Below, in pieces: positions 15,659 to 24,673 of a stretch of 38,202 nucleotides of DNA. A program made the position numbers and the translations under genes. Source of the DNA: Myxococcota bacterium (GTDB lineage: Bacteria; Myxococcota_C; UBA6777); the NCBI GenBank assembly GCA_023150835.1, contig JAKLKB010000073.1, forward strand, positions 1 to 38,202, in the 5' to 3' direction. The first letter of the stretch is position 1, and each line of letters opens with the position of its first letter. The notes under the pieces were generated by a model. It saw only the letters and a list, made by a program, of their open reading frames with translations, was not told the origin of the DNA and searched no databases.

Positions 15659-17134
15659 TTAGGGGTTGTTTGCGGGGGCGACGGCGACCATGCCCCAAGA
15701 GCCGGCACCGAGAGCGACTTCCATTTGAGCGGGGTTGACTTCGATCGATCCGCCTTTGACGAGGGGATCGCCGACGATGTAGTTGCCTTCGGGGGTGCGG
15801 CCAAGGACGGTGACAAAGTGGCCGCCGGGATCGCGAGAGTTGAGGTAGTTTCCGTTGGCTTTTTGTTCTGCGCCCCAAGCGTCCCAGACTTTGTTGGTTC
15901 CGAGGATGACGGGCATTCCTTGTTGGAGGGCGTTGTCGATATTGGAGAGGGCTTGGACGGGGTCGCGTGTGACGGGAAGGTCGATGCCTTGGGCTCCATA
16001 GGCAGTCAGTCCATTTTTGAGGGTGGCAAAGCCCATGGTGTTGGAGGTGGTGGTGTCGTGGCCGTACATGGAATCGCGCATGGCGTCGATGGCGCTGTGA
16101 GCGGTTTCAGGGGTGGGTTGTTGGGTAAGGCCGAGGGTGTTGAGTGCCATGAGGGCGGAGGTGGGGCCGCAATCGCTGTATCCGTAGGGGATATCACGAC
16201 TTCCTGCGGGATCGTTGTAGGCGGTGGGTCCCCATTGCGTCAGAAAAGATTGATTGGCTTGTTGTGTGGAGGTGGGGAGGGATTCGTTGATGGGAGGGGG
16301 AGGAGGGGTAAAGCTAGGGCCTTGGATCAAGCGTTGTTCGAGGGCTTGTGAGGTGGCTTGGTCGTAGATGCCGGTGACGGGGAGGTTATGTGCGCGCTGG
16401 AAGCGTCGGACACCGCCTTCGGTGCGAGGGCCAAAGTTTCCGGGACCGCTGTTCATATCGGCTTGGGTGAGATAGCCCGTGTCGACGAGGCTTTGTTGGA
16501 GTGCGCGGACATCTTCGCCGTGCGCTCCGCGTTCAAGCGGGGCAGCGGGAGCCACAGTGGTGGAGGGGGCAGGTTCGGTGGGCGGAGTGGGGGCCGTTTG
16601 GCTCATGGCTTGTGCGGTGGATTGGTCGTAGATACCGGTGGCAGGGAGGTTATTGGCGCGTTGGTAACTGCGCACAGCGGCTTCGGTGCGAGGCCCAAAG
16701 ATACCGGGGCCTGTGTTCATGTCGGCTTGGGTGAGGTGTCCTGTTTGGACGAGGTGGTTTTGGAGGTCGCGGACATCGCTGCTTTGAGCGCCACGTTGGA
16801 GCGGTGGAGCGGGGAGTTGTGGAGCGGTGGTGCTGTTTGAAGCGGTGGCTGCGGTGCTTGTTGTTGCGGCGGTGTGGGCTGTTGCGGCGGATCGAGTGGT
16901 GTCGTTTCCTTGTTTGACGAGGAAGTTTTGGATCAAGTTGCTGCCGAGGTTGTGCATACTGCCGAGGTTTTCGCGTGTGGTGCTATAAGAATTGGAAGAG
17001 GTTGAAGCGGGGGTTGTGGTGGAAGTATTGGTGTTTGTCGTGGAGGAAGCGCGGGGGGCGGTGGTGGTGCTTGCGGCTTTGGTGGGTGCGGGTGGTGCGG
17101 GTGCGGGTTGGGGCTTGTTTGATTGGATCTTCAT
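15659..17134 (-). CDS. Double peptidoglycan-binding domain protein with C39-like peptidase
   Basis: 491 residues, ATG preceded by AAAGGAG. Residues 1-110 are a Thr/Ser/Ala/Pro-rich low-complexity leader, without a recognisable Sec signal or lipobox. Two PG_binding_1-type repeats follow at about 112-182 and 205-272, each with a DVRxLQ, FGPRTE and YQRANNLP/FQRAHNLP pattern. A C39-like Cys peptidase closes the protein: Cys322 (YSDCGPTSALMAL), His439 (GGHFVTVLG) and Asp456 (VGDPLVKGG). The fold predicts cleavage of peptides bound to or part of the cell wall. How it leaves the cell is unclear, and a non-Sec route (contractile injection or phage-like lysis) is one possibility. It lies 200 bases downstream of the ATP-grasp/esterase cluster on the same strand. 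Confidence 0.8.
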   Translation of the reverse strand: MKIQSNKPQPAPAPPAPTKAASTTTAPRASSTTNTNTSTTTPASTSSNSYSTTRENLGSMHNLGSNLIQNFLVKQGNDTTRSAATAHTAATTSTAATASNSTTAPQLPAPPLQRGAQSSDVRDLQNHLVQTGHLTQADMNTGPGIFGPRTEAAVRSYQRANNLPATGIYDQSTAQAMSQTAPTPPTEPAPSTTVAPAAPLERGAHGEDVRALQQSLVDTGYLTQADMNSGPGNFGPRTEGGVRRFQRAHNLPVTGIYDQATSQALEQRLIQGPSFTPPPPPINESLPTSTQQANQSFLTQWGPTAYNDPAGSRDIPYGYSDCGPTSALMALNTLGLTQQPTPETAHSAIDAMRDSMYGHDTTTSNTMGFATLKNGLTAYGAQGIDLPVTRDPVQALSNIDNALQQGMPVILGTNKVWDAWGAEQKANGNYLNSRDPGGHFVTVLGRTPEGNYIVGDPLVKGGSIEVNPAQMEVALGAGSWGMVAVAPANNP

Positions 17135-17334: not shown

Positions 17335-18558
17335 TTAATCTTCGAATTCAACGCGGATGGTGTTGATGAGGCGTTGGAGGGCTTCTTTGACGACTTCGGT
17401 GTCGGTGTGTCGGACGACAACGTAGCCTTCGCCTTCGTAGCTAGTAGAAGAGTGCTGACCGACTTGAGGGAGTTTGGCTTCGATGACAAGGGAGCCGACT
17501 TCGCGTTGGGCTTGTTCGATGCCGTGAACGGCTTTGACGCGGCCTTTGCCCATGCCACGGAGGAAAGCGGCCCCTGCGGCGTATTTTTGTTGTGGGAAGG
17601 GGAAGGTGCCAAGGATCATCAATTCGACCCATGCTTTGTGGAAGTCGAAGTCGTAGCCGAGGGCGGTGAGGGTCATGATCTGCGCGCCCGGGGGGCGAGC
17701 CGCGACTTCGGAGATGGCGATGCTACCGTCATCACGGAGAAACCATTCCATGTGGGTGAGTCCGGTTTGCATACCGAGGGCTTTGAGGGCGTGTTTGTTG
17801 GCTTCGGTGATCTGCTGATAGTGGGGGGCATCGAGTTCGCGGGGGAGCAAGACGCACCATTGAATCCAAGGATTCTTGAGGACTTCGAGGGGAGTGGGAT
17901 AGTATCGTGTCGAAGAAAACCACACCAGTTTTCCGTCGATACTGACGCCTTCAAAGGAGTATTCTTGGCCTTTGATGAATTCTTCAAAGAGGGTGGGATC
18001 TTCGGGGGAAAGTTTGGCGACAGAGAGGTAGTCGTTGAGTTGTTGGTCGTCGTTGATCTGGAAGGTATTGCGAGCGCCAGCACCAGCGGGGGGTTTGATC
18101 ACGATGGGGAAGCCGACTTGTTGTCGGAACTGACGGACTTGTTCGGTGTTTGTGGCGAGCAGGTGGCGAGCGCAGGGAAGCCCGTTGGAGCGCAAGATAT
18201 CCTTCATGCGGGCTTTTTCGCGGAAGTTTCGAGCGACAGCTTCGGACATACCGTAGATACCGAGGTGATCGCGGACAGTACCGAGGGTGATTTGGAGATC
18301 TTCGAGGAAACCGATCAGGCGATGGATGGGGCCATTTTGTTGCATCAGAAAGCGGCAAGCGACGACGACTTGGCCGGCATCAAGGGTGTTGTTGACGCGG
18401 TAGTGGCCGACCATCTTGTCGCGGTATTCTTGGGGGAAGCGTTCGACAGGTTCGTGGGTGACGACGCTGACGCCGACATCGGGGATCTCAAGCATCGGCT
18501 TGAAGAAACGGAAGGTGGTTTGACCGAGGTAAGGGACGACGAACACAACGTGTTTCAT
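17335..18558 (-). CDS. ATP-grasp carboxylate-amine ligase-like protein 1
   Basis: 407 residues from ATG 18558, with a short GAGG site upstream. It has the three-part ATP-grasp layout: an N-terminal Rossmann-like pre-ATP-grasp domain (MKHVVFVVPYLG), a linker FREKARMKDILRSNGLPCAR, then the lysine strand FPIVIKPPAGAGA, FEEFIKGQEYSFEG, and the metal-binding strand THMEWFLRDDGSIAISEVAARPPG. In the family these enzymes activate a carboxylate as acyl phosphate and join it to an amine. The substrate cannot be read from sequence. It is the last gene of the six-gene minus-strand cluster, and 146 bases with a 22-bp direct repeat separate it from the upstream esterase gene. The residues needed for catalysis appear intact. 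Confidence 0.9.
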   Translation of the reverse strand: MKHVVFVVPYLGQTTFRFFKPMLEIPDVGVSVVTHEPVERFPQEYRDKMVGHYRVNNTLDAGQVVVACRFLMQQNGPIHRLIGFLEDLQITLGTVRDHLGIYGMSEAVARNFREKARMKDILRSNGLPCARHLLATNTEQVRQFRQQVGFPIVIKPPAGAGARNTFQINDDQQLNDYLSVAKLSPEDPTLFEEFIKGQEYSFEGVSIDGKLVWFSSTRYYPTPLEVLKNPWIQWCVLLPRELDAPHYQQITEANKHALKALGMQTGLTHMEWFLRDDGSIAISEVAARPPGAQIMTLTALGYDFDFHKAWVELMILGTFPFPQQKYAAGAAFLRGMGKGRVKAVHGIEQAQREVGSLVIEAKLPQVGQHSSTSYEGEGYVVVRHTDTEVVKEALQRLINTIRVEFED

Positions 18559-18606
18559 AGGGGGGCCTCTTTTGTTCTAGGGATCTGAGGGTACGCGGGG
18601 TGTTTC

Positions 18607-18692
18607 CGCAGTAAAGGTACGTTTGGAGCGAAGCAACAATCGCTTTTCTCCAAACCTGCTAAGTTGTTTGCGCAGTAAAGGTACGTTTGGAG
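18607..18692. repeat. 22-bp direct repeat and hairpin between esterase and ATP-grasp 1
   Basis: CGCAGTAAAGGTACGTTTGGAG occurs exactly at 18607-18628 and 18671-18692. Between the copies an inverted repeat GTTTGGAG (18621-18628) / CTCCAAAC, with an inner GAAGC/GCTTT stem, forms a strong hairpin. No T-run follows on either strand. The placement in a 146-base intergenic gap suggests an operator pair or an RNA control element for ATP-grasp 1. Confidence 0.6.
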
Positions 18693-18704
18693 TGGACGAG
18701 TGGT

Positions 18705-19442
18705 TTAAGGGACCATGTTATCGAGATATTTGGGGAGCATATCGCGCCATGTGATCCAATCGTGATCCCATTTGTGCCAGATATCAAGGCGGTGGGGGAT
18801 CTGTTTGGAGGCGAGGATGTGGGCGACACGTTCGCTTTCTTGGGGTTCTTCCCACTTGCCGTCACCTGTGGCGAGCAGGATAAAACGCTCGCGGAGTTGT
18901 TGGAGTTGTGGGCCTTCTTGGAGGTTGGGGAGAAAGTGAAGGGGAGAAGAGAAATAGAGATCGAGGCTGTGTTGGCCTTTGGCCCAGCGTTGGATATCGA
19001 AGGTTCCGCTCATACAGATGGCGCTTGAGAAGATATCGGGGGAGCGGGTGATGGCCGCGAGTGCATTATAAGCCCCAAGAGAAGCTCCGGCAGTAATGAT
19101 CGGGATATCAGGCGTATGACAATCGTGTCGGATGGCAGGGACAACTTCGTGGGTGACGAAGTGGTGATAGGCATTTTGCATGGCGGCGCGCTGGAGGCCC
19201 GAGACATGGGGATCAAGCCACGTGCGCCCAGCGACACTATCGCAAGAGTAGACTTTAAGGCGGCCTGCTTCGATCAAGGGTCGAAGGGCGCGCATCATCA
19301 AGAAGCGTTCGCCTTCTTCGGCATCTCCGCCTGCGGTGGGAAAGAGCAGAAGCGGTTGTCCGTAATAGCCAAAGCGAGCGACGAGGACGTCTTGGTGGAG
19401 GCGTGTGGAGTACCAACGAGAGGCCAGTTTGTAAGGGAACAT
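18705..19442 (-). CDS. Fes/esterase-D-type alpha/beta hydrolase, short form
   Basis: 245 residues from ATG 19442, with AAGGAG six bases upstream. The frame extends further but without a better site. An alpha/beta hydrolase of the putative-esterase family (PF00756 type): nucleophile motif GASLGAYNAL, and the C-terminal catalytic His in WHKWDHDWITWRDML, the usual ending of this family. There is no signal peptide, so the substrate is intracellular. Members include enterochelin esterase and S-formylglutathione hydrolase. It lacks the N-terminal domain found in its neighbour at 19579. It lies between that gene (136-base gap) and ATP-grasp 1. Confidence 0.88.
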   Translation of the reverse strand: MFPYKLASRWYSTRLHQDVLVARFGYYGQPLLLFPTAGGDAEEGERFLMMRALRPLIEAGRLKVYSCDSVAGRTWLDPHVSGLQRAAMQNAYHHFVTHEVVPAIRHDCHTPDIPIITAGASLGAYNALAAITRSPDIFSSAICMSGTFDIQRWAKGQHSLDLYFSSPLHFLPNLQEGPQLQQLRERFILLATGDGKWEEPQESERVAHILASKQIPHRLDIWHKWDHDWITWRDMLPKYLDNMVP

Positions 19443-19578
19443 GCAACACTCCTTGAGGCTTTTGGTGGAGCGGTTTGTGTAGTCGCCCACTCGACGCATT
19501 GGGGGGATATCTCGGGCGTGCCGAGTGGATGCGTTGGTTTGTTTACGCCCGATGCTTGGGTGTTTGAGAGCGACAGCG

Positions 19579-20715
19579 CTATTCGTAGATCATCCAAAGA
19601 GGCCCGGGGAAAAGCCAAGTGAGCGCATCGCGCAGGTGGTCACGCCAGTTGATCCAGTTGTGACCATCGCGGGATTCGCGGTACTCGACTTCCATCCCTG
19701 TTTTTTGGAGGAGCGGAACAATCGAGCGATTTTCGTAGATCAGAGATTCGTACATCCCGCACGTGACAAAGACTTTTTCGCTAGGTTTACCGGGATGTTT
19801 TCGGAAGCGGTTCATAAAGTCGACCACAGGGTCAAACAGGGGGCCGCGTTTGTTTTCTCCGATATCCGTAAAGGCAAAGGAGCCGGATTGGAGGAGGAGT
19901 CGGCCAAAGACTTCGGGGTGTCGCCAAGCGGTGGAGAGGGTGGCGACGCCGCCAAAGGAAGCGCCCATGAGTCCGCGCATTTGGGGGATATCGTGGATGG
20001 GGTAGCGTTCTTGGAGGAGGGGGAGGACTTCGTGGACGGTGAATTGGGCTTGAGCGGGGTGATCGGGGTATTCTTGGAGGCGTTGGATGGGGTGTTGGAG
20101 GGCGACGATCAGGGGGGCGACTTCGCTGCGGTGGATGAGGTTGTCAAGGACGAACTTGAGGGAAGAATAGCGTTTGTAGTCGGGTCCGTCGTGGACGATC
20201 AAGAGGGGATAGCGTCGTCGGGGTCGGAAGCGAGCGGGGAGATAGACGGTGAGATGGCGTTTTCCGCCGTAGGCTTGGCTATCGATCTCGATATCTTCGA
20301 GTGTTCCAGCGCGGCTTTCGGTATCTTCGAGTGTCCATTCGGGGGTGAGGTAGCCTGCGCCTTGGCAGACGGAGTTGGCTCCAAAAGGATCGTAGGCGAG
20401 GTGTTTGTTGAGGGGATCACGGATCCAATGGCTGTGTCCGCGTTGAACGACTTCAAACTTGTATTCGATGCGGGACTGGTGAGGGATATCGGCTTGGAGC
20501 ACCCAGTGGCGGGTGCTGGGGATACGGAAAAAGTCTTGGGAGGAGGGGAGTCCAAAGATCCAATGGCGGAGGCGGACTTGTTCGGCATCGCCGCGATAGA
20601 AGAAGAGGACGGTGTTTTCTTCGACCCAAGGGAAGGCATGGATCTGCAAGAATTCATCGATTTCTGCATCGGAGACAGGGATATGTTGTTGTAGTCGGTG
20701 GATCAGTGATTTCAC
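19579..20715 (-). CDS. Enterochelin-esterase-like hydrolase with N-terminal sandwich domain
   Basis: 378 residues from GTG 20715, preceded by AAGGAG. Residues about 25-125 look like the immunoglobulin/CBM48-like domain of Fes-type esterases (VLFFYRGDAEQVRL, YKFEVVQRG, WIRDPLNK). The catalytic alpha/beta hydrolase follows, with nucleophile motif MGASFGGVATL and His in RDGHNWINWRDHL. No signal peptide is seen. The start overlaps the stop of the S51-like gene by four bases (GTGA), so the two are translationally coupled. In siderophore systems such enzymes hydrolyse ester bonds of an intracellular product. Here no siderophore synthetase is present, and the substrate may be the product of the neighbouring ATP-grasp enzymes (inference). 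Confidence 0.88.
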   Translation of the reverse strand: MKSLIHRLQQHIPVSDAEIDEFLQIHAFPWVEENTVLFFYRGDAEQVRLRHWIFGLPSSQDFFRIPSTRHWVLQADIPHQSRIEYKFEVVQRGHSHWIRDPLNKHLAYDPFGANSVCQGAGYLTPEWTLEDTESRAGTLEDIEIDSQAYGGKRHLTVYLPARFRPRRRYPLLIVHDGPDYKRYSSLKFVLDNLIHRSEVAPLIVALQHPIQRLQEYPDHPAQAQFTVHEVLPLLQERYPIHDIPQMRGLMGASFGGVATLSTAWRHPEVFGRLLLQSGSFAFTDIGENKRGPLFDPVVDFMNRFRKHPGKPSEKVFVTCGMYESLIYENRSIVPLLQKTGMEVEYRESRDGHNWINWRDHLRDALTWLFPGPLWMIYE

Positions 20716-21866
20716 CGCGACTCTCCTTTGGGGGCGAGGGTTGGGATCTCGGTGGCGCTGGTGAAGGAGGCGAGAGTTGGGATCTTGGTGGAGCTGTTGA
20801 AGGAGGCGAGAGTTGGGATCTCGGTGGCGCTGGTGAAAGAGTCGAGTGCTGCGGCCTTTTCGGCGCTAGGGAGGGCATCGCGAGAAGGGAATTGGTTGGC
20901 ATGTTCGGAGGCATGGGGAGAAGGGAGGACAGTGGCGTGTGAAAAGTGTTGGACATGACCGTCGGAGTGGAGGAGGCGGGTGTGTGGGTAGATCTTCCAT
21001 CCCGAGGAGGTGGCTTGGATGCGAGAGCCTTCGTCGAGGGCGCAGCAGAGGGAAGGGTGGAAGCGTTGAGCGAGAAGAGCGACACGAGCGGGGTCGTCGA
21101 GGTTGAGGCGTCGTTTGGCGTGCGGGAGGGGGAGGAGTCCTTTGAAGTAGCCAAGTCCGAGGTCAAGGATCTCGGGAGTACCGGCCCCTTGGGGTGGGTG
21201 ATCATGAAAAAGCACGACGCGATCGCTGAGCGCCATCGCCCCGGCGGACCAAGCGACAAGGCGTCGGTTGGCGAAGAAGGTTTCGATCCCAAGCATACGG
21301 ATACGATTGAGAAGGACAGCGACGTGGCCGCCAGCGATGGCGATGGTGGGGCAGTATCCGAGGACAGAGTGGATCTCTTCGCGCTGTTGTTGGATGGCGG
21401 GGCGCTCAAGGGAGCGCCATCGGGTTTCGAATTCTTGGTGGACGAGTTGGAGACGTTGGAGGTGGTGTTGATCGAGGCGTTGGATGGCGGCGATGGCGTC
21501 GGCGCGTTCGGGGAGGACGAGAGCGGGATCGCCTAGGTGTCGGAAGAGATGTTGTGCGGCTTCCACGAGTTTATCGAGGCGAAAACGGTAGAGGTTTTGG
21601 AGGTCGCGGAGTTGATCTTGGCGGGCGCGGTGGGCCTCAAAGAGATCTGTATCGGCGTGGAAGACATCTTCGCAACGGGCGTGGATGCGGAGGTTATGGA
21701 CACGGCATTGGGAGCCGAGGACTTCGCGGAGTTCTTCGTCTTCTTCTTCGCGTTCTTGCCATCCAGCGGAGACGAGTGCGATATCGCCGTCGATGCCGTG
21801 TTCTTTGAGGATATGGTGGACGGTGGGTTCGAGGCGTTGGGGTCCAAGCACGATCAGGTGTGGCAT
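20712..21866 (-). CDS. S51-like (cyanophycinase/dipeptidase E superfamily) protein
   Basis: 384 residues from ATG 21866, preceded by AAGGAAG. A longer upstream frame is Cys/Arg-rich and looks unreal. The core has IAIAGGHVAVLLNRI followed by the nucleophile motif AWSAGAMAL (Ser207), FHDHPP and LPHAKRRL, as in the S51 and cyanophycinase group of class-I-glutaminase-like folds. The N-terminal 150 residues contain an acidic helical part (EREEEDEELREVL). The last 45 residues are three near-identical 12-residue repeats of the type ASFTSATEIPTL. The family cleaves Asp-containing peptides or amides. It lies between ATP-grasp 2 and the Fes-like esterase, a grouping that recalls cyanophycin synthetase with cyanophycinase. 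The 259-base gap upstream holds no convincing gene. Confidence 0.72.
   Translation of the reverse strand: MPHLIVLGPQRLEPTVHHILKEHGIDGDIALVSAGWQEREEEDEELREVLGSQCRVHNLRIHARCEDVFHADTDLFEAHRARQDQLRDLQNLYRFRLDKLVEAAQHLFRHLGDPALVLPERADAIAAIQRLDQHHLQRLQLVHQEFETRWRSLERPAIQQQREEIHSVLGYCPTIAIAGGHVAVLLNRIRMLGIETFFANRRLVAWSAGAMALSDRVVLFHDHPPQGAGTPEILDLGLGYFKGLLPLPHAKRRLNLDDPARVALLAQRFHPSLCCALDEGSRIQATSSGWKIYPHTRLLHSDGHVQHFSHATVLPSPHASEHANQFPSRDALPSAEKAAALDSFTSATEIPTLASFNSSTKIPTLASFTSATEIPTLAPKGESR
20736..20843 (-). repeat. Three tandem 36-bp repeats in the S51-like gene
   Basis: Units at 20736-20771, 20772-20807 and 20808-20843 differ at only a few positions. They keep the reading frame and encode Ser/Thr-rich 12-residue repeats with alternating Glu or Lys. 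Three units with no spacers rule out CRISPR. Confidence 0.9.
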
Positions 21867-22125
21867 GTGGTTTTGGCTTCCTTGTGCGGGGTCACTCGGC
21901 AGCGCGGGCAAGGCACCTTGGGGTCTTGGGTGACGCGAGCAAGGCTTTTCGGTGCGTTGGGGGGTGTGCGAGCGACAAACACCGGCGTTGAGTAGGCACG
22001 AATCCATTCGGTGCATACGAGGCTTGAGCAAGGAGCGGTGTGTGTTTGTTTGTGCGCACCAGCGCAAACCTCGTCGAGCATGATAACGCAGATCGCAAGG
22101 AGTTCGCACAAATTCGCGGATCGGT

Positions 22126-23346
22126 TTAGCGGGAAGCGTACATCTGGATGTCTGTGGCGGCGATATCGGCCATGTGAAGGGCATCTTCCCAGCGAGGATG
22201 ACGGACGATCAGAAAGCCATCGCTGACGAGGGTTTGTTTCCAGTTGCGTCGGTGAGCGCCGATGGGGAGAAGTTGTTCGGTGCAGATCCATTGTCCGAAG
22301 CGTTGTTTGTAGGCATCAAGTCCGTGTATAGCGCGGATCGTGCCTTCGCCTTGTGCGCGTTTGAAGATGATGGCGGCGTTGTAGAGGCGGCGGGTGGGTG
22401 CGGAAAAGTGTTTGTGACAGACAGCGCGGGCCCATTCGCGGAACAGATCGATATCGCTGGTGTAGTTCATTTGATCGACGAGATGCGCTCCGCCCGGTCG
22501 ACAGCCGATCTCGCCAAAGACGACTTCGCCGTTGGGCTTGTAGTACCATTCCATGTGCGTAAAGCCCGTGCCCATGCCGAGAGCTTTGAGAACGCCTTTG
22601 CCGAGTTCGATGCCAGCGCGGATCTTGGGTTGGTTGAGATCGGAGACTGTGACGATCACAGGGCTGATCCACTCGTTGGTGCGGGCGATTAGTGGGCGAG
22701 GGAGGTATTGTGCGACGTTCATATAGACGGGTTCACCGTCGATGCAAACGGTGTCAAAGGTGAATTCTTCGCCGTCTACGAATTCTTCGACGCTGACTTC
22801 GGGGACATGGCGGAGGGCAGGGAGGACGCGGTGGAGTTCTTCGTCGTTTTGAATGCGGTAAGTATCGGCGCTACCGGCACCTGCGATGGGTTTGATGATG
22901 ATGGGGAATCCGATCAGATGGGCGGCGTCGATCACATCTTTTTCGGTGCTTGCGCGAAAGGCGTAGGGGACGCGCAAACCAGCGCGTTCGACGCGTTCTT
23001 TCATCAGTTGTTTGTCGCGAAATCCGAGGACGGTGTTGTAGGACATCCCCGCGACACCGAGTTGTTCGCGCAGTCGGGCGGCTGTGAGGACAAGGATCTC
23101 CCATTGGGCTTCGATGCGATCGACATGACGGCCTCCGAGCCATTGTTTGACGCGAGCGATCAGGTCGCCTTCGTTCATGATGCTTGGGACTTGGAGATAA
23201 TCGCTGAGGTAGGGGCGGACTTTTTCGGGGAGGGCGTGTGCGGGTGTGTCGCCAACGCCGAGGACACGGGCGCCGACTTCGGCGAGGCCGCGAGTATACT
23301 CGATCATCTCGGGTGGATAAGCCGGGCTGAGGAAGAGAACTTGCAT
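22126..23346 (-). CDS. ATP-grasp carboxylate-amine ligase-like protein 2
   Basis: 406 residues from ATG 23346, with AGGAG upstream. It shares the layout of the proteins at 17335 and 23444: pre-ATP-grasp domain (MQVLFLSPAYPPEM, GVGDTP), linker FRDKQLMKERVERAGLRVPY, lysine strand FPIIIKPIAGAGSADTYRI, VEEFVDGEEFTFDTVCIDG, and THMEWYYKPNGEVVFGEIGCRPGG. A C-terminal lid domain of about 80 residues ends in DGFLIVRHPRWEDAL. It is closest to ATP-grasp 3 at its N-terminus and probably arose by local duplication. It lies 97 bases downstream of ATP-grasp 3. Ligase activity is predicted from intact motifs and the substrate is unknown. Confidence 0.9.
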   Translation of the reverse strand: MQVLFLSPAYPPEMIEYTRGLAEVGARVLGVGDTPAHALPEKVRPYLSDYLQVPSIMNEGDLIARVKQWLGGRHVDRIEAQWEILVLTAARLREQLGVAGMSYNTVLGFRDKQLMKERVERAGLRVPYAFRASTEKDVIDAAHLIGFPIIIKPIAGAGSADTYRIQNDEELHRVLPALRHVPEVSVEEFVDGEEFTFDTVCIDGEPVYMNVAQYLPRPLIARTNEWISPVIVTVSDLNQPKIRAGIELGKGVLKALGMGTGFTHMEWYYKPNGEVVFGEIGCRPGGAHLVDQMNYTSDIDLFREWARAVCHKHFSAPTRRLYNAAIIFKRAQGEGTIRAIHGLDAYKQRFGQWICTEQLLPIGAHRRNWKQTLVSDGFLIVRHPRWEDALHMADIAATDIQMYASR

Positions 23347-23443
23347 AATGGACTCCTGCGAAACGCACAGGCGGCGTTCAAAAGGCTAGACGGTCGGGTG
23401 TTGTGGGGGATCTTTGGATGAGGTGATTGTGGATGGGAGGGTG

Positions 23444-24673
23444 TTAGTGCGCCCACATCTTGACGGTTTGTCCGATGTCATCGAGCATTGCGCGGCAAGC
23501 ATCGTAATCGGGGTGACGCACCCAAACCCACGCATGAGCGAGATAGCCCGCACCGACGGGCGATGTCGCCGATCCTTCGGGTGGAAAGTGCGCAGCAAGA
23601 ATCCAAGGGTTGTATTTGGCGAACATCTCTTCACGTCCGCTGTATCCTGCGACATGGCCGTCTTGACTGGGTCGCAAAGAGATCAGTCCAGCGGAAAAGC
23701 GGCGGCTTGGTTGTGGGGAGGCTTGGCCGAACATCAAAGCGCGGGCCCATTCGGTGTAGAGGTCAAAGTCATTGGCGTAGTTGTAGAGATCCCACAGGCG
23801 GCATCCGGGGGGACGAGCGCCGATCTCGCTGAAAGTGAGGCCCTTGTCGCCGACAAACCATTCCATGTGAGTGGCGGTGGTTCCGAGTTGAAAGAGATCG
23901 ATCACGCGCTCGCCAAATTGGCGAAGGGGCTGATAACCCGGGGAGTCGATGCGGTTGGTGAGGACGATCTGCGGGCTGATCCAGCGGGTGCGCATGGCTT
24001 CGAGGACGTTGGGATAATAGTGACAGATGCCGTCAAAGATCACTTGGCCGTTGCAGGTCAAGGTGTCATAAAAGCCTTCGTGGCCTTCGATGAATTCTTC
24101 CATGGTAAAGAAGGCGTTTTGGCTGTTGGAAAGACCCGTTTCTGCGAGGGCTTGTTTGAGTTGTTCGGCGTTGTCGATACGATAGGTGGCGTGTGCGCCC
24201 GCGCCATCGCGAGGTTTGAGGATGACGGGATAGCCCGTTTCTTTAACAAACAGCCATGCTTTTTCGGCGTTATTGACGGCAGCGTTGCGCGCACAGGGGA
24301 CGCCTCTTGCACGCAAGAATTGTTTCATCTGAAATTTGTCGCGGCAGAGGTTGATGGTTTCCGAAGATATCCCGGGGATCTTGGCGCGTTCGCGGACACG
24401 AGCAGCAAGCAACATATGGCTTTCGATGGTGGCCTCGAAGCGATCGACCCAAGGCCCACGGTCTTGGATACGGCGTACGGCTTGGTAGACAGCTTCTTCA
24501 TTGCCGACAGAAGGGACTTGTTCGTATCCGTAGAGCCATCCTTTGATCTCGTGATCGAGATGAGAGAGCGGTGTTTCGCCGATGCCTGAGACGCGAGCGC
24601 CGATCCCCGCGAGTGCGCGGACAAATTGTCGTTGGTTGGATGGGAAGTGGGGGGCTAAAAAGATGATGTGCAT
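23444..24673 (-). CDS. ATP-grasp carboxylate-amine ligase-like protein 3
   Basis: 409 residues from ATG 24673. GAGGTG lies five bases upstream, and the TTG just before is less likely. Motifs: MHIIFLAPHFPSNQ, linker CRDKFQMKQFLRARGVPCAR, YPVILKPRDGAGAHATYRI, MEEFIEGHEGFYDTLTCNG, and THMEWFVGDKGLTFSEIGARPPG. It is the first gene of the six-gene minus-strand cluster, so the control region should lie in the 267-base divergent gap 24674-24940. That gap shows no hairpin or repeat-family member. The three paralogues keep catalytic motifs but differ in the central substrate-facing segment, as expected if they add different building blocks (inference). Confidence 0.9.
   Translation of the reverse strand: MHIIFLAPHFPSNQRQFVRALAGIGARVSGIGETPLSHLDHEIKGWLYGYEQVPSVGNEEAVYQAVRRIQDRGPWVDRFEATIESHMLLAARVRERAKIPGISSETINLCRDKFQMKQFLRARGVPCARNAAVNNAEKAWLFVKETGYPVILKPRDGAGAHATYRIDNAEQLKQALAETGLSNSQNAFFTMEEFIEGHEGFYDTLTCNGQVIFDGICHYYPNVLEAMRTRWISPQIVLTNRIDSPGYQPLRQFGERVIDLFQLGTTATHMEWFVGDKGLTFSEIGARPPGCRLWDLYNYANDFDLYTEWARALMFGQASPQPSRRFSAGLISLRPSQDGHVAGYSGREEMFAKYNPWILAAHFPPEGSATSPVGAGYLAHAWVWVRHPDYDACRAMLDDIGQTVKMWAH

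Follow-up and report, generated by a model that had tools for sequence, protein, structure and literature searches.

In this study, we report a cluster of six genes from a Myxococcota bacterium (UBA6777) whose best reading is that it represents most of a seven-family module, composed of four ATP-grasp ligases (G1, G5, G6 and X7), an S51-fold protein (S4) and two esterases (E3 and E2). Comparative genomics showed that the cluster behaves as a genuine functional unit, co-inherited across phyla. With a probability that we place slightly under even, the module carries out the cytosolic, NRPS-independent synthesis and turnover of a short peptide-like compound. The window, i.e. the whole stretch of DNA analysed, comprises 38,202 nucleotides of contig JAKLKB010000073.1 (assembly GCA_023150835.1). 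An earlier sequence-only reading had described six genes on one strand, and the genes with their gaps and overlap were all recovered on the minus strand, between positions 17335 and 24673:

23444-24673, minus strand: G6, ATP-grasp enzyme resembling L-amino-acid ligases (409 aa, ATG start at 24673)
22126-23346, minus strand: G5, second ATP-grasp paralogue (406 aa)
20712-21866, minus strand: S4, protein of predicted S51/cyanophycinase fold (384 aa, ATG start at 21866)
19579-20715, minus strand: E3, alpha/beta hydrolase similar to Fes/enterochelin esterase (378 aa, GTG start)
18705-19442, minus strand: E2, small PF00756 esterase (245 aa, ATG start at 19442)
17335-18558, minus strand: G1, third ATP-grasp paralogue (407 aa)
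18601-18692, no strand: two 28-nt direct repeats in the E2-G1 gap (96% identical, 64 nt apart)

Re-reading of the ORFs gave intergenic distances, from G6 to G1, of 97, 259, -4, 136 and 146 nucleotides, the GTG start of E3 overlapping the S4 stop by 4 bases. A mechanically listed ORF of 490 aa for S4 was rejected as over-extended in favour of the start at ATG 21866. The 28-nt repeat pair was found nowhere else in the window, for which the chance expectation is 0 matches. The region immediately downstream (positions 15659-17134), which shares the strand of the cluster, encodes peptidoglycan-binding repeats and a C39-like peptidase domain. All six cluster proteins scored below every NCBIfam equivalog cut-off among the matches listed. 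The nucleophile elbows noted previously (Ser207 in AWSAGAMAL, GASFGG and GASLGA) were present as described.

The assignment of three ATP-grasp proteins was also upheld, as each cleared the gathering score of one or more Pfam ATP-grasp families. G6 was at or over the cut-off for PF02786, PF13535 and PF02222, G5 scored 37.7 bits with PF13535 and G1 scored 55.2 bits with PF02222. The LAL_C2 domain was detected weakly in G1 only and failed its cut-off (22.3 bits vs 29.4). The Lys, EE and E-x-x-x-R-P motifs were invariant in G1 and G6, and the P varied in G5. When the G6 family profile was compared with solved structures, the top match was 4wd3 (RizA, an L-amino acid ligase; 2e-23), with BacD and then BL00235 next among the enzymes that form peptide bonds; the solved-structure matches of the ligases are confined to the ATP-grasp core and do not extend to the substrate pocket. 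L-amino-acid ligases (Lals) join free amino acids into dipeptides (PMC6920838), and RizA, BacD and BL00235 are likewise single-chain ATP-grasp enzymes of approximately 400-470 aa. These matches show that G1, G5 and G6 are related to the Lals, and they may form dipeptides. They are unlike the Lals in that they fall into three paralogous groups of ancient origin, found alongside three hydrolases and a RimK-like ligase.

Phylogenetic analysis placed G1, G5 and G6 each in a monophyletic group spanning phyla, with a support of 1.0 for the G1 clade, while G6 had not formed a clade in an earlier, midpoint-rooted tree that included distant copies of the type found on contig C220 of the same genome (see below). 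The ligases were thus shown to belong to three orthologous groups of L-amino-acid-ligase-type enzymes that are ancient and separate from one another, and since they form separate clades across phyla they are ancient paralogues, each probably having its own function. Local duplication as the source of the three genes was rejected, because each ligase belongs to its own cross-phylum clade. A second G5 copy, 61% identical, was located in the same genome (C220:3107-4321; L072:3107-4321), and the sister species likewise carries a second copy (L074).

S4 scored 16.7 bits against the Pfam S51 family PF03575, under the gathering score of 23.9, and a search of its profile against PDB sequences gave nothing beyond weak PdxT matches; fold prediction was therefore used. 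The predicted model (pLDDT 82) aligned with 7uqv over 217 residues (Z 17.0, rmsd 3.2) and gave Z scores of about 16-17 with 7uqv, 7uqw, 3en0 and 1fy2, the matches including cyanophycinase, pseudo-CphB and PepE. PepE-like chains scored between Z 14 and 16.5, and the next fold, that of class I amidotransferases, scored about Z 6. At the level of the predicted structure, the S51/cyanophycinase fold of S4 was thus confirmed despite the sub-cut-off Pfam score. S4 shares the fold and nucleophile elbow of the S51 peptidases (CphB, pseudo-CphB, PepE and MccG) and differs from them in an extra helical hairpin of approximately 80 residues (about residues 73-150 of the model), in an invariant H221 motif, and in having Cys for Ser or lacking H249 in some relatives. 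The C-terminal segment of about 60 residues was modelled with low confidence. Tandem-like repeats of 36 nt at the 3' end of the gene (window positions 20730-20873) encode a repetitive C-terminal tail that is missing from the other aligned relatives.

The PepE-type catalytic triad consists of S120, H157 and E192 (PMC9239234). In the S4 of the window, S207, H249 and E279 follow the PepE order. Of these, S207 and E279 were assigned from the alignment with E. coli PepE, and H249 was matched by position, PepE H157 being gapped there. Among 23 S4 family members, the nucleophile is Ser in 18 and Cys in 5, His occupies position 249 in 12, and the full triad (S/C, H and E/D) is kept in just 8, so that S4 may not be a hydrolase in every member; H221 and the PPQG motif (H221-x-x-P-P-Q-G) were invariant in all 23. 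The comparison with cyanophycinase drawn in the sequence-only reading, which would imply an Asp-peptidase role for S4, is therefore unsafe: the PepE-type triad is complete in the S4 of the window and not family-wide (8/23). A second, weaker S4-like family was observed on other Myxococcota contigs, e.g. G156:C134:13094 and G088:C16:15093 (approximately 65-86 bits, with about 180 residues aligned), and a tblastn search of a plasmid collection with S4 gave 0 matches.

The cyanophycinase fold of S4 (Z about 17), together with weak matches of the ligases to the ATP-grasp regions of cyanophycin synthetase, could point to a cyanophycin-like storage polymer, in which a poly-amino-acid made by the ATP-grasp enzymes would be degraded by the S51-like protein. 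The CphA/CphB pathway does pair ATP-grasp amide synthesis with a peptidase, as the cluster may do. The CphA architecture is seen in no ligase, however, as no Mur-ligase domain was matched by Pfam in any of the six proteins and the ligases are only about 400 aa each. The S51 triad is variable within the family as described above, and the two esterases would be left unexplained, which makes a storage polymer very unlikely.

S51 peptidases can also confer resistance to peptidyl-nucleotide antibiotics (PMC9239234), and by this precedent the cluster might serve detoxification or salvage, its hydrolases disarming peptide-like compounds, as S51 peptidases do with microcin C, and its ligases recycling or tagging them. 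We give this little credence, about as much as a storage polymer: four conserved ligases exceed what such a role would need and the S4 triad is variable. PADLOC returned 0 matches for the seven proteins, which is weak evidence, since its library covers phage defence and undescribed systems are outside its reach.

E3 exceeded the Pfam cut-off for PF00756 (73.9 bits), and its profile matched enterochelin esterase in PDB (1.4e-17), ferulic-acid esterases also being alike. Against the NCBIfam enterochelin esterase PRK10439 it gave 9.6e-29 and 100.6 bits, under the equivalog cut-off of 222. E3 aligned with Fes/enterochelin esterase at residues 59-367, most of its length, and has the invariant Ser-His and an HNWxNWR motif; Ser253, Glu323, Asp350 and His352 were invariant in 21 aligned sequences. 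E2 was also over the PF00756 cut-off (43.1 bits), and its Ser120, Glu197 and His226 (A5-fragment numbering) were invariant in 17 homologues. The likeness of E3 to Fes, which opens enterobactin, would suit a role in iron acquisition, through a siderophore or its hydrolysis. PF00756 members also include feruloyl and carbohydrate esterases, and the siderophore genes that would accompany Fes were not recognised nearby. The larger ORFs of the window yielded no recognisable TonB receptor, ABC importer or NRPS, and none of these was recognised as recurrent in the relatives. Iron acquisition is accordingly rated marginally below even the storage polymer.

Using S4 as the query against 84,980 species genomes, we obtained 25 loci, one of which is a near twin of the window (97%), the others being 36-52% identical. 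Their hosts belong to Myxococcota, Acidobacteriota, Planctomycetota, Eisenbacteria and Proteobacteria, and all are metagenome-assembled. Whether homologues of the cluster genes might never co-occur elsewhere, a question raised with the first description, was examined, and the same neighbours were found to recur: of the 24 non-twin loci, 23 have E3 as the gene immediately after S4 and in the same orientation, the sole exception being a contig that ends there, and the commonest S4-E3 junction is one of overlapping stop and start codons. Among these 24 loci, G6 was found in 19, E2 in 15, G5 in 11 and G1 in 7, counts that are lower bounds because several contigs are short. Crude ORF clustering over 26 loci recognised no recurrent conserved ORF family of at least 90 aa beyond those described here, no recurrent transporter family beside the cluster and no recurrent precursor-like ORF of at least 90 aa. 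The ORF families FAM4, 7 and 10 were set aside as probable antisense ORFs of high-GC genes.

The loci also revealed a fourth ligase gene, X7 (about 415 aa), which is usually sited between E3 and E2. It was found in 17 of the 24 loci and in 21 of the 23 genomes bearing S4 loci. The X7 profile weakly reaches D-Ala-D-Ala ligase, and its sequence match to the RimK family is nearly undetectable (20.4 bits vs a cut-off of 143.4). An AlphaFold model of X7 (pLDDT 79) aligned best with RimK (Z 17.9, rmsd 3.1, 259 residues), other ATP-grasp folds (synapsin, PurK) scoring within 1-2 Z of it. X7 is therefore predicted from its model to be a RimK-fold ATP-grasp ligase, differing from the RimK family by an additional C-terminal helical domain. 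In five Myxococcota loci, e.g. L018:11635-13428 and L024:14333-16087, E2 is followed by a CBS-domain protein that weakly matches GCS2-type (EgtA/YbdK) glutamate-cysteine ligases and is possibly a fifth ligase.

X7 is absent from the window, and the window's genome and its sister species hold only a divergent copy (34%). In the window's genome, a mini-cluster at G000:C220:49.1-54.2 kb (L071:5122-10228) contains diverged E2-, G6-, X7- and E3-like genes; a mini-cluster of this type is also present in the sister species (L073) and may represent a related, separate pathway. As X7 is missing from the window, the pathway there may be incomplete or modified, the X7 step being either performed by the divergent X7 of contig C220 or lost.

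Co-inheritance was analysed by phylogenetic profiling of S4, X7, G5, G1 and E2 (leaving out E3 and G6) in 188 sampled Myxococcota genomes, this phylum being used because the window's own phylum has just five genomes. Orthologue cut-offs were set by eye at a gap in the bit scores. S4 and X7 were each found in 57 of the 188 genomes (30%). Counted as both, S4 only, other family only and neither, the pairings of S4 were 56/1/1/130 with X7 (Fisher p 9.5e-46), 55/2/2/129 with G5 (p 1.7e-42), 55/2/3/128 with G1 (p 3.3e-41) and 57/0/9/122 with E2 homologues (p 4.7e-39), and all five families occurred together in 52 genomes. These p-values overstate independence, because the genomes have common ancestry; descent alone is nevertheless an unlikely cause of the co-occurrence, because other phyla show the same neighbourhood. 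The six-gene unit of the sequence-only reading is thus real as a unit and incomplete in gene number, as X7 also belongs to it (56/57 genomes).

G1, G5 and X7 are at times far from S4 or on other contigs, as could be expected of genes with separate functions that cluster for unrelated reasons. The genome of L010, for example, encodes G1, G5, G6 and X7, its G1 gene being on a separate contig. S4 and X7 lie within 25 kb of each other in 31 of 56 genomes, so that many pairs without demonstrated linkage still co-occur. Near-perfect co-occurrence even where the genes are unlinked in some genomes (56/57, p 1e-45) leaves the unrelated-genes reading strongly disfavoured by the phylogenetic profile, and we regard it as the least probable of all the readings considered.

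Besides small molecules, LAL-like and RimK-like enzymes could have peptides and proteins as substrates. RimK, the nearest fold to X7, adds Glu to a ribosomal protein, and the ligases might by the same token modify or cross-link a protein or ribosomal peptide in a RimK-like or graspetide-like manner, with S4 and the esterases removing or processing the modification. Graspetide loci do include alpha/beta hydrolases (PMC8939145). Against this, G6 is nearest to ligases of free amino acids, most gaps between the core genes S4, E3, X7 and E2 leave too little room for a precursor gene, and the ORF clustering, which covered ORFs of at least 90 aa within the loci, recognised no extra conserved family. 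Modification of a protein or peptide is thus considered unlikely, less so than the storage polymer, iron and detoxification readings.

We return to the cytosolic synthesis and turnover of a short peptide-like compound as the preferred reading. Each ligase would use ATP to activate one carboxylate as an acyl phosphate and couple it to an amine, and since each activates and couples one carboxylate, the four ligases would work one after another, each on a building block of its own. E3, E2 and S4 would then cleave ester or amide bonds to trim, release, recycle or mature the product, whose turnover may be likened to that of enterobactin by Fes or to that of cyanophycin, which is opened by cyanophycinase. 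That the crude ORF clustering recognised no transporter family recurring beside the cluster favours a compound retained inside the cell, and we infer that it is small, intracellular and amide-, ester- or peptide-like. In the NAGGN pathway, amide bonds are likewise made non-ribosomally by ATP-grasp enzymes with peptidase neighbours; that pathway has a GNAT-ATP-grasp fusion and an asparagine-synthase-like gene, neither of which was seen in the cluster.

The combination of genes had not been recognised as a described pathway in the sequence-only reading, and no description of this gene set was found in the searchable literature; an earlier mention is possible, e.g. in the amidoligase survey of Iyer et al. 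2009. Each kind of enzyme is already known; the combination, its strict co-inheritance and the X7 partner appear to be new. The module may have escaped notice because the loci of the scan are all metagenome-assembled. That four ligases and three hydrolases are so strictly co-inherited implies that many environmental bacteria contain a metabolite to which the set is dedicated. A more specific proposal, held with somewhat less confidence than the preferred reading itself, is that three Lal-like ligases and one RimK-like ligase form an undescribed NRPS-independent pathway, present in at least five phyla and about 30% of sampled Myxococcota, whose product would be a small peptide-like metabolite of a new class, turned over by two esterases and an S51-fold protein dedicated to it. 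The module now stands as a defined gene list, X7 included, which opens the way to heterologous expression and metabolomics, and its ligases are new candidate amino-acid ligases for biocatalysis.
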